From a virus, in IMG/VR virus record IMGVR_UViG_3300023174_000038, positions 284,702 through 348,701 of that record: a DNA stretch of 64,000 bases, one strand, 5' to 3'. Made by a program: the position numbers and the translations under genes. Numbering within the stretch: the first letter of the stretch is position 1; every line of letters starts with the position of its first letter. Positions 18,472 to 62,284 of the stretch are shown here, piece by piece. The notes under the pieces are model-generated. The model ran no database searches. It was given only the letters and a program-made list of their open reading frames with translations, and had not been told where the DNA came from.

Positions 18472-18549
18472 TATAAATAGTAGTGTAGCCCACGAGAATC
18501 TGACCTCTCCGACTACTCTAATGCTCATATCTTGAAAGGAAGCACCAGC
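18472..18549 (+). promoter_or_regulatory. endonuclease leader 1: late promoter plus conserved hairpin
   Basis: TATAAATA (18472-18479), then TAGTGTAG and a hairpin: outer stem GTAG 18485-18488/CTAC 18513-18516, inner stem GAGA 18494-18497/TCTC 18506-18509. Then ACTCTAATGC, a GAAAGGAAG ribosome site and CAGCATG. The same layout occurs before the endonucleases starting at 37586 and 47604. Confidence 0.75.
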
Positions 18550-19383
18550 ATGACTATTTATTATTTAATGATTAAGACGCATAATATTACGGGTCTTAAA
18601 TATTTGTGTCAAACTAAACAAAAGAATCCTATTAATTACACAGGTTCCGGAGTTGATTGGAAAATACACTTAAAAGAGCACGGCATAGATATTAGGACTA
18701 GTATCATTAAAGCATCAACTGATAAACATATCATCAATGAGTTAGGAAGACATCTCAGTAATCTATGGAAAATAACTACTGCCATGAATGATTACGGGGA
18801 CAGAATATGGGCTAATAAAATACCTGAAACGGGCGGTGGTGCAGGAGTTACTAGTGATATAGCAAAACAAAGATACGTAGATCATCCTGAGTTGATTGAA
18901 CAATTCAAGAAAACAATGACATTGCCGCAAAGTGTTCAGAGAAGAAAAAAATCTAGGGCTGTTACAGTTTCACAACCTGAATTTAGAGAAAAATTCAAAT
19001 CAACAATGAAACTTGCCATGAATAGACCAGAAGTCAGATTGAATAATAGCATCAATCAGACGAAAGCTCAAAATAGACCCGACGTAAAACTGAATAAAAG
19101 TATTAAACAAAAGGAAGCTCAAAATAGACCCGAAGTTAAGATGCTCAAGAGTAAAAATGGCAAAATAGCACAGAATAGACCAGAGGTTAAAGATTCCAAA
19201 TCAGGTAAAAATAATTATAGATACGATCCAACAATTCGCACATTTATTCATTCTGACGGAACGATAGAAAAAATGCCAGCTAACGATTTCAGTCTAAAGT
19301 ACAACTTAGATCGCGGGTGGCTATCCAATGTAATTCTTGGAAATAGAAAAACAATAAAAGGTTGGTCTGTTAAAGTGCAGTAA
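18550..19383 (+). CDS. homing endonuclease (GIY-YIG-like) with tandem repeats and DNA-binding tail
   Basis: 277 residues from ATG 18550, after GAAAGGAAG. The N-terminus MTIYYLMIKTHNITGLKYL and the region up to IPETGGGAG match the endonuclease at 46942, a relative of GIY-YIG enzymes. Residues 150-215 hold four tandem units of about 17 residues, each with NRPEV or NRPDV. The last 50 residues (FSLKYNLDRGWLSNVILGN) look like a NUMOD1-type helix-turn-helix. The gene lies opposite to its neighbours and overlaps the 3' end of the clamp loader gene by 14 bases, typical of a mobile insertion. Confidence 0.78.
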   Translation: MTIYYLMIKTHNITGLKYLCQTKQKNPINYTGSGVDWKIHLKEHGIDIRTSIIKASTDKHIINELGRHLSNLWKITTAMNDYGDRIWANKIPETGGGAGVTSDIAKQRYVDHPELIEQFKKTMTLPQSVQRRKKSRAVTVSQPEFREKFKSTMKLAMNRPEVRLNNSINQTKAQNRPDVKLNKSIKQKEAQNRPEVKMLKSKNGKIAQNRPEVKDSKSGKNNYRYDPTIRTFIHSDGTIEKMPANDFSLKYNLDRGWLSNVILGNRKTIKGWSVKVQ

Positions 19384-36438: not shown

Positions 36439-36924
36439 TTATTTATCTGACGGTTCTTTACTGGCCAACATCTTAAGCAACTCGTTGCGGTCTAAAGCTT
36501 TACCCTCACCAACTGGCGTGTTCTCTATCTCTTCGGCTTTTCCAGCCAACTTCTGGTCTAACTGTGCTTTCTTAAGCTGTAAATCAATCATCTTTAACTT
36601 CTTATTCAATTTAGCAGTCTTTGCTGTAATAGCATGACCTAACATGTTACTAGCAACACTAAAAATCTCACTACTAAATCTACTATCAACTTGCATACCC
36701 AAATCACTTAAATCTTTAAAACTATCTACAGCCATCTGCGCTAATTCATCTAACTCATTATCACTAGCATCTAATCCACGTACTTGTGGCAATGCATTAT
36801 CAATCTTCTCTAACGCACTTAATGCATCAGTGGTTATATCACGTGCATTTTCTGGTATAGGAATATGCAAGCTGTCAATCTCATCTTGCGGTAGCTCAAA
36901 TAATTCGTTTAATTTTTTCGTCAT
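36439..36924 (-). CDS. putative terminase small subunit (gp16-like)
   Basis: 161 residues, nearly all helical: an N-terminal Leu/Glu segment, a central coiled-coil pair ([39 protein letters not shown]) and a short charged tail. Size and coiled-coil layout match T4-type small terminases (gp16, 164 residues), and it sits near gp4 and tail genes. No large terminase is in the window, so the call rests on shape only; a scaffold helper is the main alternative. Its ATG overlaps the end of the endonuclease gene (ATGA). Confidence 0.4.
36440..36447 (-). promoter_or_regulatory. late promoter box GATAAATA inside a gene end
   Basis: GATAAATAA in which GAT AAA TAA are the last two codons and stop of the gene at 36439; about 19 bases before ATG 36420. 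Confidence 0.55.
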
Positions 36925-37586
36925 ATGTTATTTATTCGGTCTCTGTTATCCAAAATGTATTTTACCCTATCCCATGAGATTTGAAGTTTAATAGATATCT
37001 GTCTAATATTTGTACCACTATCAGCTAATTCAAACACTTGAGGGAATAAGTGTTTGTTCTTGTCAATATATGTTGTAACCATCTGTTCTCTTTTTTCATC
37101 AGACCAGGTAGATCCTTTTCTATTTTCTGCAGCCTTCAAGCAATTATTAAGTCTATTTTCTAGTGCCTTTTCAGACCAAACTTTGTATTCTGTTTGGTAT
37201 ATTTTAATTTTTTCTTTAGTGGACTCTTTACGTTTTATACCAGTACGTTGCTCGGTAAATAATTTTTTAGTATGTTCATAATGTTTAAATCCAGATACTC
37301 CTTCTCCACCATCGGTTCTATTTTGTAGTATACCGGTATTATTATTCTTTCTACCATACCATTTAATCATCCTTCGTTCTATTGCAAATGCACCTATTTC
37401 TGTTAAACCGGATTCTAATATAATAATCCTAGACGTGTCTTTTGGAGTTTTAAATCGTTCAGTATTTGCGTGACCCCACGCTCTATATCCGTGTCCTTTA
37501 CCGATGTAATACGGTGTGTTATCTTTCCGTAGATAGGCATATACATAAAACCCCGCAGGATATAATTTTTTATAATAAATAGTCAT
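36921..37586 (-). CDS. GIY-YIG homing endonuclease
   Basis: 221 residues. [19 protein letters not shown] (13-31) is a textbook GIY-YIG core, with the following Arg (GYRAWGHA), Glu (ERRMIKWYG) and Asn (LQNRTDGG). The middle is a Lys-rich linker ([11 protein letters not shown]), and the end ([19 protein letters not shown]) a helix-turn-helix. It is inserted between gp4 and the putative small terminase gene. Its last codons contain AATAAATA, apparently the promoter of the next gene, and its leader contains a late box shared with the stop of gp4. Confidence 0.88.
36929..36936 (-). promoter_or_regulatory. late promoter box AATAAATA within the endonuclease 3' end
   Basis: AATAAATA plus ACAT, then ATG 36924. 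The endonuclease's last codons (RINNI) overlie it. Confidence 0.45.
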
Positions 37587-37654
37587 GCTGACATTCCCTT
37601 ACAATGTTAGAGTAGTTGGGGTTCCGACGCCCGCGAACTACACTTTTATTTATC
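37587..37654 (-). promoter_or_regulatory. endonuclease leader 2: late promoter plus conserved hairpin
   Basis: GATAAATA (37647-37654) overlaps the gp4 stop codon; then AAGTGTAG and a hairpin with outer stem GTAGTT/AACTAC (37636-37641 with 37612-37617) and inner stem GGG/CCC (37630-37632 with 37618-37620). Then CTCTAA, AAGGGAA and CAGCATG. Compare 18472 and 47605. Confidence 0.75.
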
Positions 37655-38096
37655 TTTTGTTCTTTGGATTACCATTGTGGAAGATATCATCTTCCGTCAA
37701 CACTCTAAAGGTATATCCATGATGCTTACAATAGGCCATTGCAGCTTGCCATTTAGCATGGTTGATTGCTACTACCATTCTATCTTTAGCATTAGCAACT
37801 TTACTTTCTATAAGACTTTGTTTCTTGGGTTTAATCTCAACTATCTCAGCAATATTTTTACCATACTTGTTTTGATAAACTACAAAGAAGTCTGGGATAT
37901 ATGTTTTTGGTTGTCCAGTAAACGGATTACGATAAGGTACACTTATTGCTTCACTAGCCCAATACAATACGTTTTTGTTAGTATCACAAAAATTCATAAA
38001 TGTTAGTTCCCATCCACTACGATATCTAGGGGTATGTTTACCTACATATTTTTGACTATTCTTTGGGGTAAATAAACCTTGAGCAAACTTTGCCAT
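37650..38096 (-). CDS. 4: head completion protein, T4 gp4-like nuclease fold
   Basis: 148 residues. The sequence FTPKNSQKYVGKHTPRYRSG, then WELTFMNFCDTN, SEAISVPY, YIPDFFVVY and EIVEIKPKK follows T4 gp4 head completion protein closely. The D in PDF and the E-x-K in EIKP are those of a PD-(D/E)XK nuclease-like fold. In T4, gp4 and gp50/gp65 seal filled heads before tail joining. Stop codon AGATAA is part of a late box for the following endonuclease. Confidence 0.85.
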   Translation of the reverse strand: MAKFAQGLFTPKNSQKYVGKHTPRYRSGWELTFMNFCDTNKNVLYWASEAISVPYRNPFTGQPKTYIPDFFVVYQNKYGKNIAEIVEIKPKKQSLIESKVANAKDRMVVAINHAKWQAAMAYCKHHGYTFRVLTEDDIFHNGNPKNKR

Positions 38097-46941: not shown

Positions 46942-47604
46942 TTACAAATCGCCTTCTTTACGATTCTCACTATAATATGCATCAAAACTACCAATATCTT
47001 TCATTTTACAATTATTTCCGTGCCATCTTACGTAATTACCTTTAGAAATAATTTTATCGCAATATTCACACGTAATCTGATACTCAGGTTTACACATTGG
47101 ATTGTTACTACCGGTCTTTAATGCATTTAATTTTGAAAGTTTTGGATTTTTCTTTCCGCGCATTGCACTTACTTTTCCAAACATTGGATTTTTATTACCA
47201 ACATTAGCAGAATTTCTAGCACTAAGTTGCGGATTCTTTTTTCCATACATGGGATGTTTATCACCAGCCCTGAGTGAGTTTCTTTCTCCTACTGTAGTAT
47301 TTTTTCTTCCGTAACAAGGATGATTCTCACCTCTATCCGAACCACCTGTTTCAGGTATCTTGTTTGCCCACTCATTACTTTTAACAATATTCCACAGTGT
47401 ACTGTAGTATCTCCCCCAAATACTCAATTCTTCTTTAGAGTGACATTCCCTAATAATTTCAGTATCAATGAATTTACCAAACTCTTTTAAATGAGATTTC
47501 CATTCTAATCCTGAACCCAAATATTTGTAGGGATCTTTAGTTGTTTTGCCGAGATATTTAATCCCAGTAACTTGGTGGGTCTTTTTGTATAGATAAATAA
47601 TCAT
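46942..47604 (-). CDS. homing endonuclease with NUMOD3 repeats, zinc finger and host-gene tail
   Basis: 220 residues. MIIYLYKKTHQVTGIKYLGK and WANKIPETGG match the plus-strand endonuclease at 18550. From 109 come NUMOD3-type repeats (GxKxPMYGKKN five or so times), then CxxC...VRWHGNNC, the same zinc finger as in the gene at 14736. The last 16 residues, GSFDAYYSENRKEGDL, agree at 12 of 16 positions with the last 16 of the upstream MazG-like protein. Late promoter and structured leader lie upstream. Confidence 0.8.
   Translation of the reverse strand: MIIYLYKKTHQVTGIKYLGKTTKDPYKYLGSGLEWKSHLKEFGKFIDTEIIRECHSKEELSIWGRYYSTLWNIVKSNEWANKIPETGGSDRGENHPCYGRKNTTVGERNSLRAGDKHPMYGKKNPQLSARNSANVGNKNPMFGKVSAMRGKKNPKLSKLNALKTGSNNPMCKPEYQITCEYCDKIISKGNYVRWHGNNCKMKDIGSFDAYYSENRKEGDL
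46945..46992 (-). repeat. target-gene tail copy at the endonuclease end
   Basis: Sixteen codons matching the last sixteen codons of the MazG-like gene (47677-47724), roughly 60% at DNA level and 12/16 at protein level, in the same frame. Confidence 0.7.
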
Positions 47605-47673
47605 GCTGATTGCTCCTTCAAAGCATTAGAGTAACTGGGAAGTCTAATTCCGCGAGTTACACTATTATTTATC
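47605..47673 (-). promoter_or_regulatory. endonuclease leader 3: late promoter plus conserved hairpin
   Basis: GATAAATA (47666-47673) directly after the MazG-like stop; then TAGTGTAA and a hairpin with outer stem GTAACT/AGTTAC (47655-47660 with 47631-47636) and inner stem GGAA/TTCC (47648-47651 with 47638-47641). Then CTCTAATGC, GAAGGAG and CAGCATG. Confidence 0.75.
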
Positions 47674-51321: not shown

Positions 51322-52698
51322 ATGGCAGCTTTCTTTTATGATAATCAGGTCCGCAGATTTCTAATTCAATTTGGTAAAATTTTTAGTAATTGGTATGTTA
51401 CTAAAGGTAAAGATCCTGCAGGTAATGAAATACTCGTCCGTGTACCAATTATGTACGGTGATAGTAGTCGTCAAGCGGCTACTATCATTGCTAATAATAG
51501 TGCTAGTAATTTACCTAGCGCACCACTAATCACTTATTACATTACTGGTTTAGAATATGACCAACGCAGAACACAAGATCCTACATTTATTGATAAGATT
51601 CAAGTTCGTCAACGTAGCTATAACGCAGAAACACAAAGTTATGAAACTGTACAAGGACAAGCATTTACTGTAGAAAGATTAATGCCAGTACCCTATACAT
51701 TACGTATAAGTGTAGATTTGTGGACAACTAACTATAATCAAAAACTACAATTGATTGAACAACTTGGTACATTGTTTAACCCATCAATGGAAATACAAAG
51801 TACTGATAACTTTATTGATTGGACTTCACTAAGTGTTGTTTACCAAGATGGACTAACATTCAGTAGTCGTAGCATACCACAAGGTACAGGCAATCCTATT
51901 GATGTAATGAGTTGGAAATTTTATATGCCTATATGGATTAGCAATGCCGCTAAACTTAAAAAGATGGGTGTTATTGAAAAGATTATTGCAAGTATCTTCT
52001 CTGGTAAAGCACTAGATGATATACAGAATGACGATTTATTATTGGGTACAAGACAAAAGATTACACCATACGGATATAAATTGTTATTGATAGGTAATAG
52101 TTTACAATTATTACCAGCTAATCAGGATTTCTATCCAAGTAATGAAGATTTAGATTTACCACCTAGTCCTAATACAAGTTTATATTGGAGTAGTCTATTA
52201 AATGTATATGGTACATTAAGACCGGGCATTAGTCAGATATGGTTACAGAATCCATATATGGATACAGAGATTGTTGGTACAATTGTACCCGACCCAGTTG
52301 ATGATAGATTATTGATATATGATATTGACCCAGATACCCTGCCTCAAAATACATTGGATCCCGTAGACAGCGTGATTAACCCATTAGTCACAGGACCAAA
52401 TGCAGGGTTACCTCCCGCAGAAAATGGAATGAGATATCTTATTGTAGATAACATTGGTCATGAAGGTGATACAACCATTGCATGGGGTAATGTAATAGCA
52501 TATGCTAATGACATTATTGAATATGATGGTAGTATGGGAGAATGGTTTGTATCATTTGATAGTGCCCAGGCTACTACGGTAGAATATGTTACCAATTTAA
52601 CAACCAGTATTCAATATCGTTATGTCAATACTGAAGGTGCATGGATGAAATCGTGGGAAGGCTGGTACGATCAGGGTGATTATAGTATTGTAATCTAA
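51322..52698 (+). CDS. 15: proximal tail sheath stabiliser (gp15-like)
   Basis: 458 residues. YDNQVRRFLIQFGKIFSNWY, VPIMYGDSSRQAATIIANNS, QGQAFTVERLMPVPYTLRIS, EIQSTDNFIDWTSLSVVY and MPIWISNAAKLKKMGVIEKI are gp15 signatures. In T4, gp15 caps the sheath and tube and joins the tail to the neck. Residues 290-458 are an extension beyond T4 gp15 (272 residues). Starts three bases after gp14. Confidence 0.88.
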   Translation: MAAFFYDNQVRRFLIQFGKIFSNWYVTKGKDPAGNEILVRVPIMYGDSSRQAATIIANNSASNLPSAPLITYYITGLEYDQRRTQDPTFIDKIQVRQRSYNAETQSYETVQGQAFTVERLMPVPYTLRISVDLWTTNYNQKLQLIEQLGTLFNPSMEIQSTDNFIDWTSLSVVYQDGLTFSSRSIPQGTGNPIDVMSWKFYMPIWISNAAKLKKMGVIEKIIASIFSGKALDDIQNDDLLLGTRQKITPYGYKLLLIGNSLQLLPANQDFYPSNEDLDLPPSPNTSLYWSSLLNVYGTLRPGISQIWLQNPYMDTEIVGTIVPDPVDDRLLIYDIDPDTLPQNTLDPVDSVINPLVTGPNAGLPPAENGMRYLIVDNIGHEGDTTIAWGNVIAYANDIIEYDGSMGEWFVSFDSAQATTVEYVTNLTTSIQYRYVNTEGAWMKSWEGWYDQGDYSIVI

Positions 52699-52716
52699 TT
52701 TACTTTATGCTATAAT
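52688..52716 (+). promoter_or_regulatory. sigma70-type promoter, NUDIX gene
   Basis: TTGTAA (52688-52693) inside the end of gp15, 17 bases, TATAAT (52711-52716), ten bases before ATG 52727. Confidence 0.65.
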
Positions 52717-52726
52717 GTCTTAGCAT

Positions 52727-53143
52727 ATGAACAATATCTCGGCAGGCGTTTTCTTTTACGCTAAAAACACACAACGATTCTTATATCTACTTAGAACGGA
52801 CAACAAAAATCCGGGTAATTGGGGTATACCAGGTGGTAAGATTGAGAATGGTGAAACATTACTTGTGGGTATTGAAAGAGAATGTACGGAAGAAATTGGA
52901 TACTTCCCTAAAAATCCAAAACTAGTACCAATACAAAAGTTTGTTAATAATACATTTACATATCATACATTCTTTTGTGCAATAGATGAAGAATTTATCC
53001 CAGTATTAAATTATGAACATTGCGGATATGCATGGGTAGGTGATACTCAATATCCTAAACCATTACATCCCGGATTGTTTAGTACAGTAAATTTTGATGT
53101 TGTGCAGAAGAAATTAAAAGCACTTACGAAAAAACGGTCCTAA
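52727..53143 (+). CDS. NUDIX hydrolase
   Basis: 138 residues. The NUDIX box is complete: G37, E43, R51-E52, E55-E56 and G58 in the pattern Gx5Ex7REUxEExGU. Leading residues FLYLLRTDNKNPGNWGIPGG form the usual beta strand and loop. NUDIX enzymes cleave nucleoside diphosphates linked to another moiety, such as oxidised dNTPs, NAD or RNA caps; substrate unknown. It has its own promoter and ends in a strong terminator, so it is a separate transcription unit. Confidence 0.9.
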   Translation: MNNISAGVFFYAKNTQRFLYLLRTDNKNPGNWGIPGGKIENGETLLVGIERECTEEIGYFPKNPKLVPIQKFVNNTFTYHTFFCAIDEEFIPVLNYEHCGYAWVGDTQYPKPLHPGLFSTVNFDVVQKKLKALTKKRS

Positions 53144-53155: not shown

Positions 53156-53468
53156 ATTTTAGTAGTTTTGCTATTGTATCAAAACCAAGTGACCCTATCA
53201 CTATGCCTGCCCCCATCATCATCCATCTCCACTTTTCTAGTGCAGAGACTTTTGATCCCAGTTCCTTATGAGCAATAACATCTTCGTTACGCATATTATT
53301 TAGAAGTGTTCTAGTTTCTTCTGCGTTACGGTCAAGACATTCATGCATCTCTTTAAGACTACTTTTGATTTCGCTGACATCTTGTTCAATGTTTTTAAAT
53401 TGAACTTGAAGTACAGCGATATCAGTTTTAGTAGTCTGTGCCGGCATCTTAATAGTTTTCGTAATCAT
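53154..53468 (-). CDS. small coiled-coil protein with C-terminal membrane helix (XhlA-like)
   Basis: 104 residues; TAATG overlap with the gene before. Residues 10-80 form a coiled coil (VLQVQFKNIEQDVSEIKSSL), followed by KWRWMMMGAGIVIGSLGF (80-97), a single membrane helix. This is the build of haemolysin XhlA/holin-like phage proteins, which attach to the membrane at lysis. Could also be a spanin-like partner. Confidence 0.65.
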   Translation of the reverse strand: MITKTIKMPAQTTKTDIAVLQVQFKNIEQDVSEIKSSLKEMHECLDRNAEETRTLLNNMRNEDVIAHKELGSKVSALEKWRWMMMGAGIVIGSLGFDTIAKLLK

Positions 53469-54862
53469 TAAGCATTAGCAATCGTTACGATTGGGTTAGG
53501 CTGACCGTTAGCAGCATTAGCGGCGTAAGCAGTATTGAATGTAGCAATAACGTCAGGGTTAACGCTATAAACAACAGCAGTACCTGTACCAGATCCTGAA
53601 GCAGTAGCAGTAAATGTTACACCTGTCATATTAGATGATGCACCAACTGCTGTCCAGTTAGTTGTACCAGTAGAATAAATTGTATATACTGTACCTGCTG
53701 ATATTGATCCGGCTGCAACTTGCGCTGGGAATATTTCACTGTTATAATCATTAATACTTGAAACATATGCTGTAGCTGATGCATCATCAGTAGAAAGAAT
53801 GTTCATTGTATTTGGTGTCAATGCTGTATTTGCTACGTTAGCAGTATAGCATTGTGCTGTTAAACCAGTTGTACCACCTGTAACTAGATATTTTGTTTTG
53901 CCTTTTTGACGAACAATATAACCAGCTTCATCATTAGCATAAACATATGCGGCATTACTTGCTACAACATTTGCATTAGCTGTTAATACAACACGATTCA
54001 TAAGAGCATTGGCTGTTACAGACGCATTGGCTGTGACAGCTTGTACAGCACCACCTTGACTAGTAGAAACCGTGAACGCGGCTGCGTTAGCAATAGTTTT
54101 AACAAAATATGTTGTACCTGTAGTTAAACCACCAAAATTAGCACTAAACTGAATTGGCATATCTTCTATAAGAGTTTGTGCATTACCTGAAGTTCCAATA
54201 ATGCTACCTGATACTGTAGTATTTGCTACTGCAACACTAACATTACCTTTTGTTGCACTTGCAAAACCTAGATTAACATAATCAGTACTACCATTAATAT
54301 TAGCAACAGCAACTTGAAGTGCTGCGCCAGTAGTCAAATTAGCTAAATCAGTACCTACACCTACTACTACATTACTAGTGTTAACCGCTACTGGTGTGTA
54401 TAATGTACCTGTTCCATTAATACCAATTGCAACTTGTGCTAATACTTGTTTACCAACAATAGCTGTATTACCACCAACTACACCGTATGTAGCTGAGTTA
54501 GTTGCCGGAAAACCTGCACCGGATACTGGGTTATTGAAATAAGCATCAACAACACCAAATGACACTCTAACTGATTGAGTAGTAGTATCAGTCATTGTTG
54601 CCAAAACTTGCGGTTGAACACTTAAGTCTGTTGCAGATACACTAAATGTAGTATTTGATAATATTACATTTACGAAATATGTAACACCTGCTGTTAGACC
54701 ACCAACTGTAGTAGCTACTTGGAATGGCATTCCTTTAGCTACACCAACTGTTGGACTAGTTGTTAGATTTCCACCTGATACTGTAACGATACTGCCTGTT
54801 TGTGCTGTATCAGTAATTGTTAAGACTGCTTGAGCCTTTGCGATTTTTAGAGGACGTCCCAT
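53468..54862 (-). CDS. beta-repeat structural protein
   Basis: 464 residues, starting MGRPLKIAKAQAVLTITDTA. Two copies of the unit F...VGGLTxGVTYFVxxI...FSVS (about 45-80 and 240-285), plus YTIYSTGTTNWTAVGASSN near 400 and a short Asn/Ala tail. The same unit occurs in tail genes at 22735 and 24024. It has the longest structured leader in the window, which suggests a highly expressed virion protein, maybe a decoration or fibre shaft. Confidence 0.65.
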   Translation of the reverse strand: MGRPLKIAKAQAVLTITDTAQTGSIVTVSGGNLTTSPTVGVAKGMPFQVATTVGGLTAGVTYFVNVILSNTTFSVSATDLSVQPQVLATMTDTTTQSVRVSFGVVDAYFNNPVSGAGFPATNSATYGVVGGNTAIVGKQVLAQVAIGINGTGTLYTPVAVNTSNVVVGVGTDLANLTTGAALQVAVANINGSTDYVNLGFASATKGNVSVAVANTTVSGSIIGTSGNAQTLIEDMPIQFSANFGGLTTGTTYFVKTIANAAAFTVSTSQGGAVQAVTANASVTANALMNRVVLTANANVVASNAAYVYANDEAGYIVRQKGKTKYLVTGGTTGLTAQCYTANVANTALTPNTMNILSTDDASATAYVSSINDYNSEIFPAQVAAGSISAGTVYTIYSTGTTNWTAVGASSNMTGVTFTATASGSGTGTAVVYSVNPDVIATFNTAYAANAANGQPNPIVTIANA

Positions 54863-54946
54863 TTGATTTTCCTTTATAAAATTAGCGGGTTCTAGCCGCT
54901 ACGCAGTGGGTTACTGCATAAACTCTCCGAATGAGAATGTATTATA
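54863..54946 (-). promoter_or_regulatory. structured 5' leader with two hairpins
   Basis: Between the late box and ATG 54862 lie stem-loops GCAGT/ACTGC (54903-54907 with 54913-54917) and AGCGG/CCGCT (54884-54888 with 54896-54900), then AAGGA. Probably stabilises or regulates the mRNA, as leaders of abundant T4 proteins do. Confidence 0.55.
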
Positions 54947-54954
54947 TATTTATC
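54947..54954 (-). promoter_or_regulatory. late promoter box GATAAATA
   Basis: GATAAATATA, 84 bases upstream of ATG 54862. Confidence 0.6.
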
Positions 54955-60160: not shown

Positions 60161-60611
60161 ATTTCACTACCTTAAAATATATGTTTTTAAGTTCATCAGA
60201 TGTATCTAAAAATGAGGGTAATTTGTCCCAAATCGTATCTGTTTTAATCATTGGTACTGTATCACAATCACTATATAATGATCCTAATTCATTAGTGCCA
60301 TCATAAAATACACTAGCATGTTGTATTTCAAAATCAAATGACCAGCAATTATATAACTCATTTTCTTGTTGTTGATATAGAAAGCCAAAGTCTGTAAATT
60401 CATCAAATCGTATTTGTATTTTTTTAGGAGTTCTAGTAATTTCAGGTTGACTACGTAATGATATAGCTTGTAATACTGTATCAAAATTACATTGTGTATT
60501 TCTTTTATGTAGCCAAGGTATCAATTCTTCATCCTCAACTGGACGACTTCTATTGACTACTCCTGTAGGGGTAATATCAAATAGTGTATAGCAAGTAATA
60601 GTGTAACTCAT
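60153..60611 (-). CDS. conserved T4-like phage hypothetical protein
   Basis: 152 residues. The N-terminus (YTITCYTLFDITPTGVVNRS) and FGFLYQQQENELYNCWSFDF resemble small proteins of T4-like aquatic phages with no assigned role. No signal or membrane segment. A degenerate late box TTAAATA stands five bases before its ATG. Confidence 0.6.
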   Translation of the reverse strand: MSYTITCYTLFDITPTGVVNRSRPVEDEELIPWLHKRNTQCNFDTVLQAISLRSQPEITRTPKKIQIRFDEFTDFGFLYQQQENELYNCWSFDFEIQHASVFYDGTNELGSLYSDCDTVPMIKTDTIWDKLPSFLDTSDELKNIYFKVVKYG

Positions 60612-60630
60612 ACTACTATTTAATAGAGGT

Positions 60631-60655
60631 AAAAAAACCCGAGAAATTCTCGGGT
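60631..60655 (-). terminator. rho-independent terminator after the 127-residue gene
   Basis: ACCCGAGAA/TTCTCGGGT stem followed by seven T on the minus strand, 20 bases after the stop at 60675. Confidence 0.88.
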
Positions 60656-60674
60656 CCTTTTAATTAAGTTAAAA

Positions 60675-61058
60675 TTAACCTGTGAATGTAGCTGTAGCTG
60701 TTGTAGTTACAGAATTAGACAAGCTAGCTGCCGTTAGAACTGCTTCTACAGCGGCATCTAAGGTTGTAGTTGTCCATGCGCCAACTGGATATACAGCCAT
60801 TGCTAGTGTATCATTAGTTGTATCTGTATACTCATACAAGTAAACTGTAGCTAATTGTTGTGTAGCTTGGATGATCAAATTAACTTGTGTACCTGTCAAA
60901 GCGCCAGTAGCTGTAATCGTGAAGAAGTCTAGCTTAGGACCTTGTGGTTGTACCGTAGCTCCTGAGGTAACAGCGTTTGCACCACTGTTTGTGTAAGCTG
61001 GGCTATCATAGTTAATTACCGGTAGTAAGTCACCGTTTGTTTTTGTAAATTGTGCCAT
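60675..61058 (-). CDS. small structural protein
   Basis: 127 residues, Thr/Ala-rich with NYDSPAYTNSGANAVTSG and a C-terminal TATATFTG. A beta-strand protein with one helix (TTTLDAAVEAVLTAASLSN). It forms its own late unit with promoter and strong terminator, fitting an abundant capsid or tail decoration protein. Not recognised as a named family. Confidence 0.6.
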   Translation of the reverse strand: MAQFTKTNGDLLPVINYDSPAYTNSGANAVTSGATVQPQGPKLDFFTITATGALTGTQVNLIIQATQQLATVYLYEYTDTTNDTLAMAVYPVGAWTTTTLDAAVEAVLTAASLSNSVTTTATATFTG

Positions 61059-61099
61059 TTTAAAATTCCTTTAAGTTTGTGAGCATATAGCTCTACTCT

Positions 61100-61107
61100 T
61101 ATTTATG
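61100..61107 (-). promoter_or_regulatory. late promoter box CATAAATA
   Basis: CATAAATAA, 41 bases upstream of ATG 61058. Confidence 0.55.
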
Positions 61108-61135
61108 CCTGGCACAAAAAAATCCAGGATTTGGC

Positions 61136-62284
61136 TTATCTTCTGGCGAGATTTTGACGACTAAATCCCATTCTATCTACAAATTTTAAGCCATTTGATA
61201 CAAAACCTTCATGCGTTTCGGTTCCGTCTTCTAAATATCCTTTAACAGGACTAACTTCAGCGGCTTTATTCAATTGATTAACCACTGACATTTTTAGTTT
61301 ATACATCTCAATCCATATAGTAAAAGCACCAACTAATCCAGCTTCATTGGCTTGTAAATGCTCAACTATCTTCGCTTTCATTTTATCAGTCATTGGTCTA
61401 TTCTGTACAAAATCCATAAACCCAGCAAGTAGATTGTTCAAATCACCTGCAACAATCTTCTTGTTAATATATACGGTAAACAATTGATTAAATGTATTAC
61501 GTGCTTGTGGTGCACTATTCATTAATTGGTCTACTGCAGGACCATATTTCTTAACTGCATTCTGTGCATTCTTTACTAATGCAGTATCTATTTTAAGCTT
61601 AGGTGCTGTTGGCATAGCACTAGGAACAATTGCAACATCACTATTATTCTTTAGTTGTCCTATATTACCATTCAATGTAACTGCTTCATCAGTGGTCATT
61701 GCATTAGGATCAATATACTGATGTACTGCAATACCAGCACGTTTACCACCCATTAATTTACCAATTGGACTATTAACTTCTACTTTGTAAGTAATACCAT
61801 TGGGATTAGCTTTGAAAACATAGTTACCGTTTTGGTCGTTTAATGGTTGATGAAATAACAAATCACCCCAATAATAACCCTTAGCACCTTTGCTAGCTTT
61901 TTCTAACCCAGGCCATATCTCATTGATAATAGGCCATAAACTATCACGCTCTACCCCACGTGCTTGGTCATATTGAACAAATTGTTCTGGACTGAATACT
62001 TGACGTCCTGTCCCGTCTTTCTTATTGAACATATGTTTGTCCATAATACTAAACTTACCTGAACTATTACGTCCAAATATCAATGCAGGATATCCATCCC
62101 ATTTGATTGTAACTGTTGCTGGATTCTTTACTGTAGCAATAGTAGCTTGTATGGCACGACTAGCACCTTCACTTCCACCTAAAAATATTAAATCTTCTGG
62201 ATGGTCTAAATGACCTTTATCTTCATTTATAGATAGTTTGTCAATTTTAGATTTAAGTAATGCTAATGCTTCCGATAAATTCAT
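61136..62284 (-). CDS. KxDG-motif ligase-like nucleotidyltransferase with capsid-targeting-like start
   Basis: 382 residues. IKWDGYPALIF (60-70) is motif I (KxDG, K61) of ATP-dependent ligases and capping enzymes; YYWGDLLF (136-143) resembles motif III; THEGFVSNG near 360 resembles EGxV of motif IV, but it is far away, with a 200-residue helical insertion between. Phage proteins of this build have no assigned reaction as far as I know. The start has SINEDKG (I19-N-E21), a prohead-protease-like site. Acts perhaps as an RNA or DNA ligase packed in the head. ATGA overlap upstream. Confidence 0.6.
   Translation of the reverse strand: MNLSEALALLKSKIDKLSINEDKGHLDHPEDLIFLGGSEGASRAIQATIATVKNPATVTIKWDGYPALIFGRNSSGKFSIMDKHMFNKKDGTGRQVFSPEQFVQYDQARGVERDSLWPIINEIWPGLEKASKGAKGYYWGDLLFHQPLNDQNGNYVFKANPNGITYKVEVNSPIGKLMGGKRAGIAVHQYIDPNAMTTDEAVTLNGNIGQLKNNSDVAIVPSAMPTAPKLKIDTALVKNAQNAVKKYGPAVDQLMNSAPQARNTFNQLFTVYINKKIVAGDLNNLLAGFMDFVQNRPMTDKMKAKIVEHLQANEAGLVGAFTIWIEMYKLKMSVVNQLNKAAEVSPVKGYLEDGTETHEGFVSNGLKFVDRMGFSRQNLARR

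Follow-up and report, generated by a model that had tools for sequence, protein, structure and literature searches.

We describe a family of structured, covarying RNA elements that lies directly before homing endonuclease genes of viruses and is absent from Rfam. The selected structure probably lies on the strand opposite the endonuclease gene, and a hairpin in the leader itself is probably the wrong picture. Our preferred reading, to which we assign a probability of about 0.55, is that an opposing late promoter gives rise to an antisense RNA, which covers the ribosome-binding site of the endonuclease gene and represses the endonuclease.

The DNA analysed here (the window) is the final 64 kb of a 348.7-kb virus record. 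The pattern AGTGTA-N-TACTCTAA occurs three times in it, where 0.02 occurrences would be expected by chance. All three are at the positions where an earlier note, made from the sequence alone, had reported leaders, and they have the outer and inner stem arms that it gave (inner GAGA/TCTC, GGG/CCC and GGAA/TTCC) as well as a Shine-Dalgarno sequence and CAGCATGA at each leader. A covariance model of 128 copies matched exactly these three leaders in the window, with 95.7, 87.8 and 69.6 bits. The conserved unit extends beyond the coordinates of the earlier note in both directions, to an ATAAATA box upstream and a TATTTAT motif in codons 2-5 downstream, and it includes a second hairpin (P3), absent from that note, which holds the Shine-Dalgarno sequence and also covaries. 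The features of the three copies are as follows.

18473..18479, plus strand: copy 1, sense late box ATAAATA, putative endonuclease promoter, 5 nt before GTAG
18485..18516, minus strand: copy 1, hairpin 2 (P2') of the predicted antisense RNA, from covariation and fold
18518..18548, minus strand: copy 1, hairpin 1 (P3') of the predicted antisense RNA, over the Shine-Dalgarno; predicted +1 at 18549
18535..18540, plus strand: copy 1, Shine-Dalgarno AAAGGA
18550..19383, plus strand: copy 1, endonuclease ORF, 277 aa, GIY-YIG family A5, from alignment with the family of copy 3
18555..18561, minus strand: copy 1, inverted late box ATAAATA in codons 2-5, putative antisense promoter, from codon constraint and spacing
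36921..37586, minus strand: copy 2, endonuclease ORF, 221 aa, GIY-YIG 'YYIGKG' type, phrog_314 homing endonuclease (E 7e-4)
37575..37581, plus strand: copy 2, inverted late box, putative antisense promoter, from codon constraint and spacing
37588..37610, plus strand: copy 2, hairpin 1 (P3') of the predicted antisense RNA; predicted +1 at 37587
37595..37600, minus strand: copy 2, Shine-Dalgarno AAGGGA
37612..37641, plus strand: copy 2, hairpin 2 (P2') of the predicted antisense RNA, the opposite strand of the earlier note's stem, from covariation and fold
37647..37653, minus strand: copy 2, sense late box, which shares bases with the TAA stop codon of the upstream gene 37650-38096
46942..47604, minus strand: copy 3, endonuclease ORF, 220 aa, GIY-YIG fold and NUMOD3, from Pfam NUMOD3 and an AlphaFold model
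47593..47599, plus strand: copy 3, inverted late box, putative antisense promoter, from codon constraint and spacing
47606..47629, plus strand: copy 3, hairpin 1 (P3') of the predicted antisense RNA; predicted +1 at 47605
47613..47618, minus strand: copy 3, Shine-Dalgarno AAGGAG
47631..47660, plus strand: copy 3, hairpin 2 (P2') of the predicted antisense RNA, from covariation and fold
47666..47672, minus strand: copy 3, sense late box

All three window genes have the GIY-YIG fold, copy 3 by its model and copies 1 and 2 by family alignment or PHROG. The AlphaFold model of copy 3 matched the I-TevI catalytic domain 1mk0 (probability 1.00, TM 0.67 by target, Foldseek E 5e-3), and its top three PDB matches were all to the I-TevI catalytic domain (probability 0.99-1.00). 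Pfam and PHROG searches with the copy 1 ORF alone gave no match. The product of the gene upstream of copy 2 (37650-38096, minus strand) contains a TnsA-like endonuclease domain and matches a phage head-closure PHROG. The covariance model located a fourth leader in the same record (C1:173468-173553, minus strand, locus L288; four in total), which precedes a GIY-YIG/NUMOD gene adjoined by a glutaredoxin-like gene. Blastn found no close DNA relatives of the window among 50,697 phage records, and the tail gene of the window shares 33-37% identity with jumbo phages such as Atu_ph07 and PA5oct. The window also carries an Rfam freshwater-2 RNA (54860-54938, minus strand, 67 bits) between a late box at 54947-54953 and the start of a 464-aa ORF (53468-54862), which makes it another structured leader of this phage that immediately follows a late box.

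Across viral records, intact leader copies precede homing endonuclease genes of the GIY-YIG, HNH and PD-(D/E)XK kinds. Motif-based sorting of 137 downstream ORFs yielded 90 GIY-YIG-like and 27 HNH ORFs, ten others and ten that were short or cut; four of the ten others have DUF7487, MTES_1575 or DUF559 domains, which are of the PD-(D/E)XK kind. By PHROG matches, most members are homing or HNH endonucleases. The downstream proteins have only an M-x-I-Y start in common, with a mean column identity of 10%. The placement before homing endonuclease genes thus held up, while the expectation of the earlier note that the element would stand next to GIY-YIG genes only was refuted: since HNH and PD-(D/E)XK genes also carry it, the leader is a feature of homing endonucleases and not of GIY-YIG enzymes. 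GIY-YIG endonuclease genes in Synechococcus phages S-SRM01 (L361) and B23 (L363) are labelled 'translation initiation factor 2', which is probably a misannotation.

The three-anchor pattern was found in at least 118 stretches of viral contigs, and two relaxed patterns in at least 119 and at least 118. A reversed control pattern gave seven stretches in the same viral collection, and covariance model R2 found nothing above 21 bits in 42 control loci; a chance origin of the pattern was rejected on these two grounds. At least 217 elements were parsed from the pattern scans, and at least 161 were left after near-duplicates were removed. R2 detected 113 copies in 25 other viral records, with 1 to 13 copies each. 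In 257 Gb of cellular genomes there were 35 pattern matches, at loci that scored no more than 21 bits with the covariance model. To avoid selection by the leader, endonuclease relatives were also fetched by protein; in most of those with the start present, the covariance model placed a leader directly before the start codon. One of these relatives (L282) has a divergent leader recognised by eye, and two others have no leader.

Among nine named phages searched with the covariance model, Variovorax phage V45v66 has a clear copy (E 1e-9, PV558790.1:85993-86074). Pseudoalteromonas phage vB_Psh_XG4 has a probable copy, which was recognised by eye and later scored by model R3, a score that is less independent because the model included this copy. 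The covariance models found no copy in phage T4, and R2 found none in Atu_ph07. Rfam release 15 gave no match above the gathering cut-off at the leaders, the best weak hit being an unrelated snoRNA at 16.7 bits. The literature searched did not describe the family, which is a weak negative as subscription journals lay mostly outside its scope.

The earlier note had argued that base pairs change together under selection for structure and had proposed a covariance search for further copies with compensatory changes. Many more such copies were found, and the covariation is far beyond chance. The 128-copy alignment (A3) contains 391 double-change cells against 94 after shuffling. The covariation score of A3 was 0.338 against 0.111 for shuffled alignments and no more than 0.108 for slid versions. 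In a more diverse set (A6), compensatory changes occur at all 16 tested pairs, and the score was 0.664 (0.220 shuffled, at most 0.164 slid). Every variable stem pair covaries; the GTAG/CTAC core is itself altered in divergent copies, which have GAGA, GTGA, GACA, GCTA and GCCA types. Covariation in P3 is as strong as in the stem already reported. A third candidate helix, P1, would pair the sense ATAAATA with TATTTAT, which are both conserved and complementary. P1 was rejected as a covarying helix, as its flanking pairs covary at chance level and it is present in only 25% of minimum-energy folds. Folding of the three leaders as single sequences on the sense strand, without the late box, was unremarkable (z 0.04 to -1.5); the case for a leader structure is a comparative one.

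The covariation also indicates which strand folds. If the mRNA fold were selected, the intermediates between G-C and A-U pairs should be G.U; those observed are A.C. Non-Watson-Crick cells on the mRNA comprise 153 A.C and 17 G.U. Counted as distinct arm haplotypes, the numbers are 53 and 1 (p 6e-15), and in the core pairs they are 12 and 0 (p 5e-4). Since many copies are related, counts of cells, here and for covariation, exceed the number of independent events; counting haplotypes lessens this effect without removing it. The excess of A.C is largest at three positions (the middle of P2 and positions 1-2 of P3), and the core pairs agree with it. An A.C mismatch in the mRNA corresponds to a G.U wobble in its complement, so that the selected fold would lie on the opposite strand.

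Consensus folding points the same way. For the same 43 copies, RNAalifold gave -11.9 kcal/mol and 12 pairs on the sense strand and -20.3 kcal/mol and 19 pairs on the opposite strand. The extra pairs form a lower stem, CUGR/UUAG, in which one G.U is kept in 41 of the 43 copies, and this stem explains the conservation of CAGC and CTAA. Individual copies likewise fold better on the opposite strand (z -1.83 against -1.11 on the sense strand, p 5e-16), where each window copy forms exactly two tandem hairpins. This fold begins at a conserved GCUG, five bases after the inverted late box, and the two hairpins and a bulged GYG motif are kept despite great sequence divergence. The earlier note was therefore right about a selected structure but probably placed it on the wrong strand, given the A.C tolerance, the folding, the consensus energy and the extra helices. 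Most Watson-Crick pairs are common to the two strands, which means that the mRNA is also able to fold, and each of the two folds may be relevant.

The TATTTAT motif after the start codon reads ATAAATA on the opposite strand, and this inverted box is conserved at the nucleotide level. In 79 copies from a scan that did not require TATTTAT, the Ile codon in the box is ATT in all 79 (44% elsewhere in the same ORFs) and the Tyr codon is TAT in 73 (67% elsewhere in the same ORFs). The box is also kept in other reading frames (L008, L024, L041, L112, L274, L350, L352, L356 and L359). Protein constraint was rejected as the cause of TATTTAT on the basis of this codon bias and the frame-shifted copies. 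Of 161 non-redundant copies among the matches listed, 143 have the inverted box 5 nt from CAGC, and related endonucleases that lack the leader also lack the box. The late promoter of the T4-like cyanophage S-PM2 is NATAAATA and that of T4 is TATAAATA (PMC2984593). We take both ATAAATA boxes to be putative active promoters on the basis of the 7-base box, which is not enriched in the window as a whole (34 seen, 44 expected).

Comparison with empty sites revealed that the cassettes insert precisely (L047/L067, L060/L059, L059/L060, L052/window and others). In L059 two genes lie almost end to end at an empty site that has no promoter, and L060 has the box, leader and ORF inserted at this junction; in L047, compared with L067, the insertion lies immediately before a native late box. 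From these empty sites it follows that the late box, the leader and the gene are inserted together, which bears out the suggestion that the leader belongs to the mobile element. No common 3' sequence was found at the cassette ends. Window positions 52580-52790, 60560-60700 and 61060-61200 are empty here and hold leader and endonuclease cassettes in the relatives L052, L047 and L096. Leaders are 81.4% identical within the same nuclease family and 80.6% between families, and an HNH and a GIY-YIG cassette at the same site (L079 and L113) have leaders that are 97.7% identical. Modules have thus been exchanged. At L053, L073, L093, L102 and L358, leaders are retained before truncated or lost endonuclease ORFs; such remnants suggest that the gene decays before the leader.

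In the mechanism that we propose, free-standing homing endonucleases of T4-like aquatic phages move as a late box, a structured segment of about 65 bp and a gene. On the strand opposite the gene, the segment would encode a small RNA that forms two tandem hairpins. This antisense RNA would be transcribed late from the inverted ATAAATA box within codons 2-5, start at GCUG just before the start codon, and extend backwards to cover the Shine-Dalgarno and the mRNA 5' end. The distance at which T4 late boxes start transcription predicts the G of GCUG as its first base. Transcription of the mRNA would begin from the opposing sense late box, close to the far end of the segment; with convergent promoters at its two ends, the 5' ends of the mRNA and the antisense RNA would be fully complementary. 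The loop of hairpin 1 would present CCUU, the complement of the Shine-Dalgarno, and pairing would block ribosome binding and hold endonuclease production down in cis and, to a lesser degree, from one copy to another. The predicted duplex of the antisense RNA with its own mRNA has -103 to -133 kcal/mol, compared with -39 to -63 kcal/mol with other copies. No conserved antisense terminator was found; many copies have a U-rich tract downstream of hairpin 2, but this tract is not conserved.

The earlier note had suggested that a hairpin may limit translation, as in T4. A limit on translation remains likely, but given the strand evidence an antisense RNA is the more probable means. Under T4-type control, the leading alternative, RNA reading through from upstream would fold into P1, P2 and P3 and hide the start region, while internal late transcripts, which lack the 5' arm of P1, would be translated, with P3 partly hiding the Shine-Dalgarno. 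Such control is known for T4 gene e, I-TevI, segB and Aeh1 mobE (PMC3014915, PMC2988022). These are precedents in which the late box likewise lies in the 5' arm; moreover, the start region takes 7.5 kcal/mol to open in the long RNA and 5.3 in the late RNA, and the P3 pairs covary. However, the structure does not appear to be selected on the mRNA strand, which tolerates A.C and not G.U and has the weaker consensus fold. The flanks of the key helix P1 do not covary and few best folds contain it, and conserved CAGC and CTAA are left unexplained. We consider this explanation unlikely, although an mRNA hairpin of this type could possibly coexist with the antisense RNA.

The RNA of the opposite strand may instead act elsewhere, as a late small RNA carried as cassette cargo that uses its anti-Shine-Dalgarno loop to act in trans on mRNAs of the phage or the host, or that binds a protein. 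The strand evidence, the conserved bulged GYG and two hairpins, and the presence of up to 13 copies per record all fit such a role. Nevertheless, it lies precisely across the start of the endonuclease gene and is linked to endonucleases exclusively, which points to the adjacent gene as the target, and its loops vary, so that we regard action elsewhere as decidedly improbable. A hairpin in single-stranded DNA, or a homology block for cassette exchange or insertion, with a logic comparable to folded integron attC sites, would suit a leader identity independent of nuclease family and the near-identical leaders of L079 and L113, but is very improbable, as RNA accounts better for the strand-biased G.T/G.U tolerance and for a promoter-like box at fixed spacing, the element is not linked to any recombinase, and the insertion ends have no common 3' sequence.

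A further step from repression by an antisense RNA is more doubtful, and we offer it tentatively. The antisense RNA may be an exchangeable control module behind which unrelated endonucleases are swapped, and it may exert copy-number or immunity control on every copy in the cell, limiting self-cutting by resident and incoming endonucleases. In that case it would be to homing endonucleases what multicopy inhibition is to IS10, or would correspond to a type I antitoxin. If one RNA module does serve GIY-YIG, HNH and PD-(D/E)XK enzymes, the control element and not the enzyme would be the conserved part of the mobile unit, and antisense RNA would join the known restraints on these selfish genes. The covariance model together with the late box is a marker with which free-standing homing endonucleases can be found and annotated in metagenomes.

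Several known systems resemble parts of this arrangement. The hairpins that sequester the ribosome-binding sites of T4 I-TevI, I-TevII, I-TevIII and segB and of Aeh1 mobE are likewise found at homing endonuclease genes in T4-like phages, where a late box adjoins an RNA structure at the start codon (PMC2988022, PMC3014915). They were described gene by gene and on the mRNA, whereas here a single covarying family spans nuclease families and probably folds on the opposite strand. Similarly, seg43 of Aeromonas phage 25 is a single case on the sense strand with no covariation reported (PMC2988022). Among reported antisense RNAs at phage endonuclease genes, CfrI of cyanophage S-PM2 comes closest, as it also overlaps a homing endonuclease gene in a T4-like phage; unlike the family described here, it is about 225 nt long, links the endonuclease gene to psbA and is reported at one locus, and it is not a cassette-borne family over a ribosome-binding site (PMC2984593). 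By analogy, IS10 RNA-OUT would be the closest working model. It is 69 nt long and complementary to the translation initiation region of the transposase (PMC5006887). Both cases concern a nuclease gene of a mobile element with opposing promoters, putative ones here, at its 5' end and several copies per genome, and the strand signature suggests that here, too, a structured RNA lies opposite the start of the enzyme gene, with a similar length and a predicted position over the translation initiation region. In contrast to the sigma-70 promoters of IS10/Tn10, the elements described here have phage late boxes, two hairpins and three unrelated endonuclease superfamilies.
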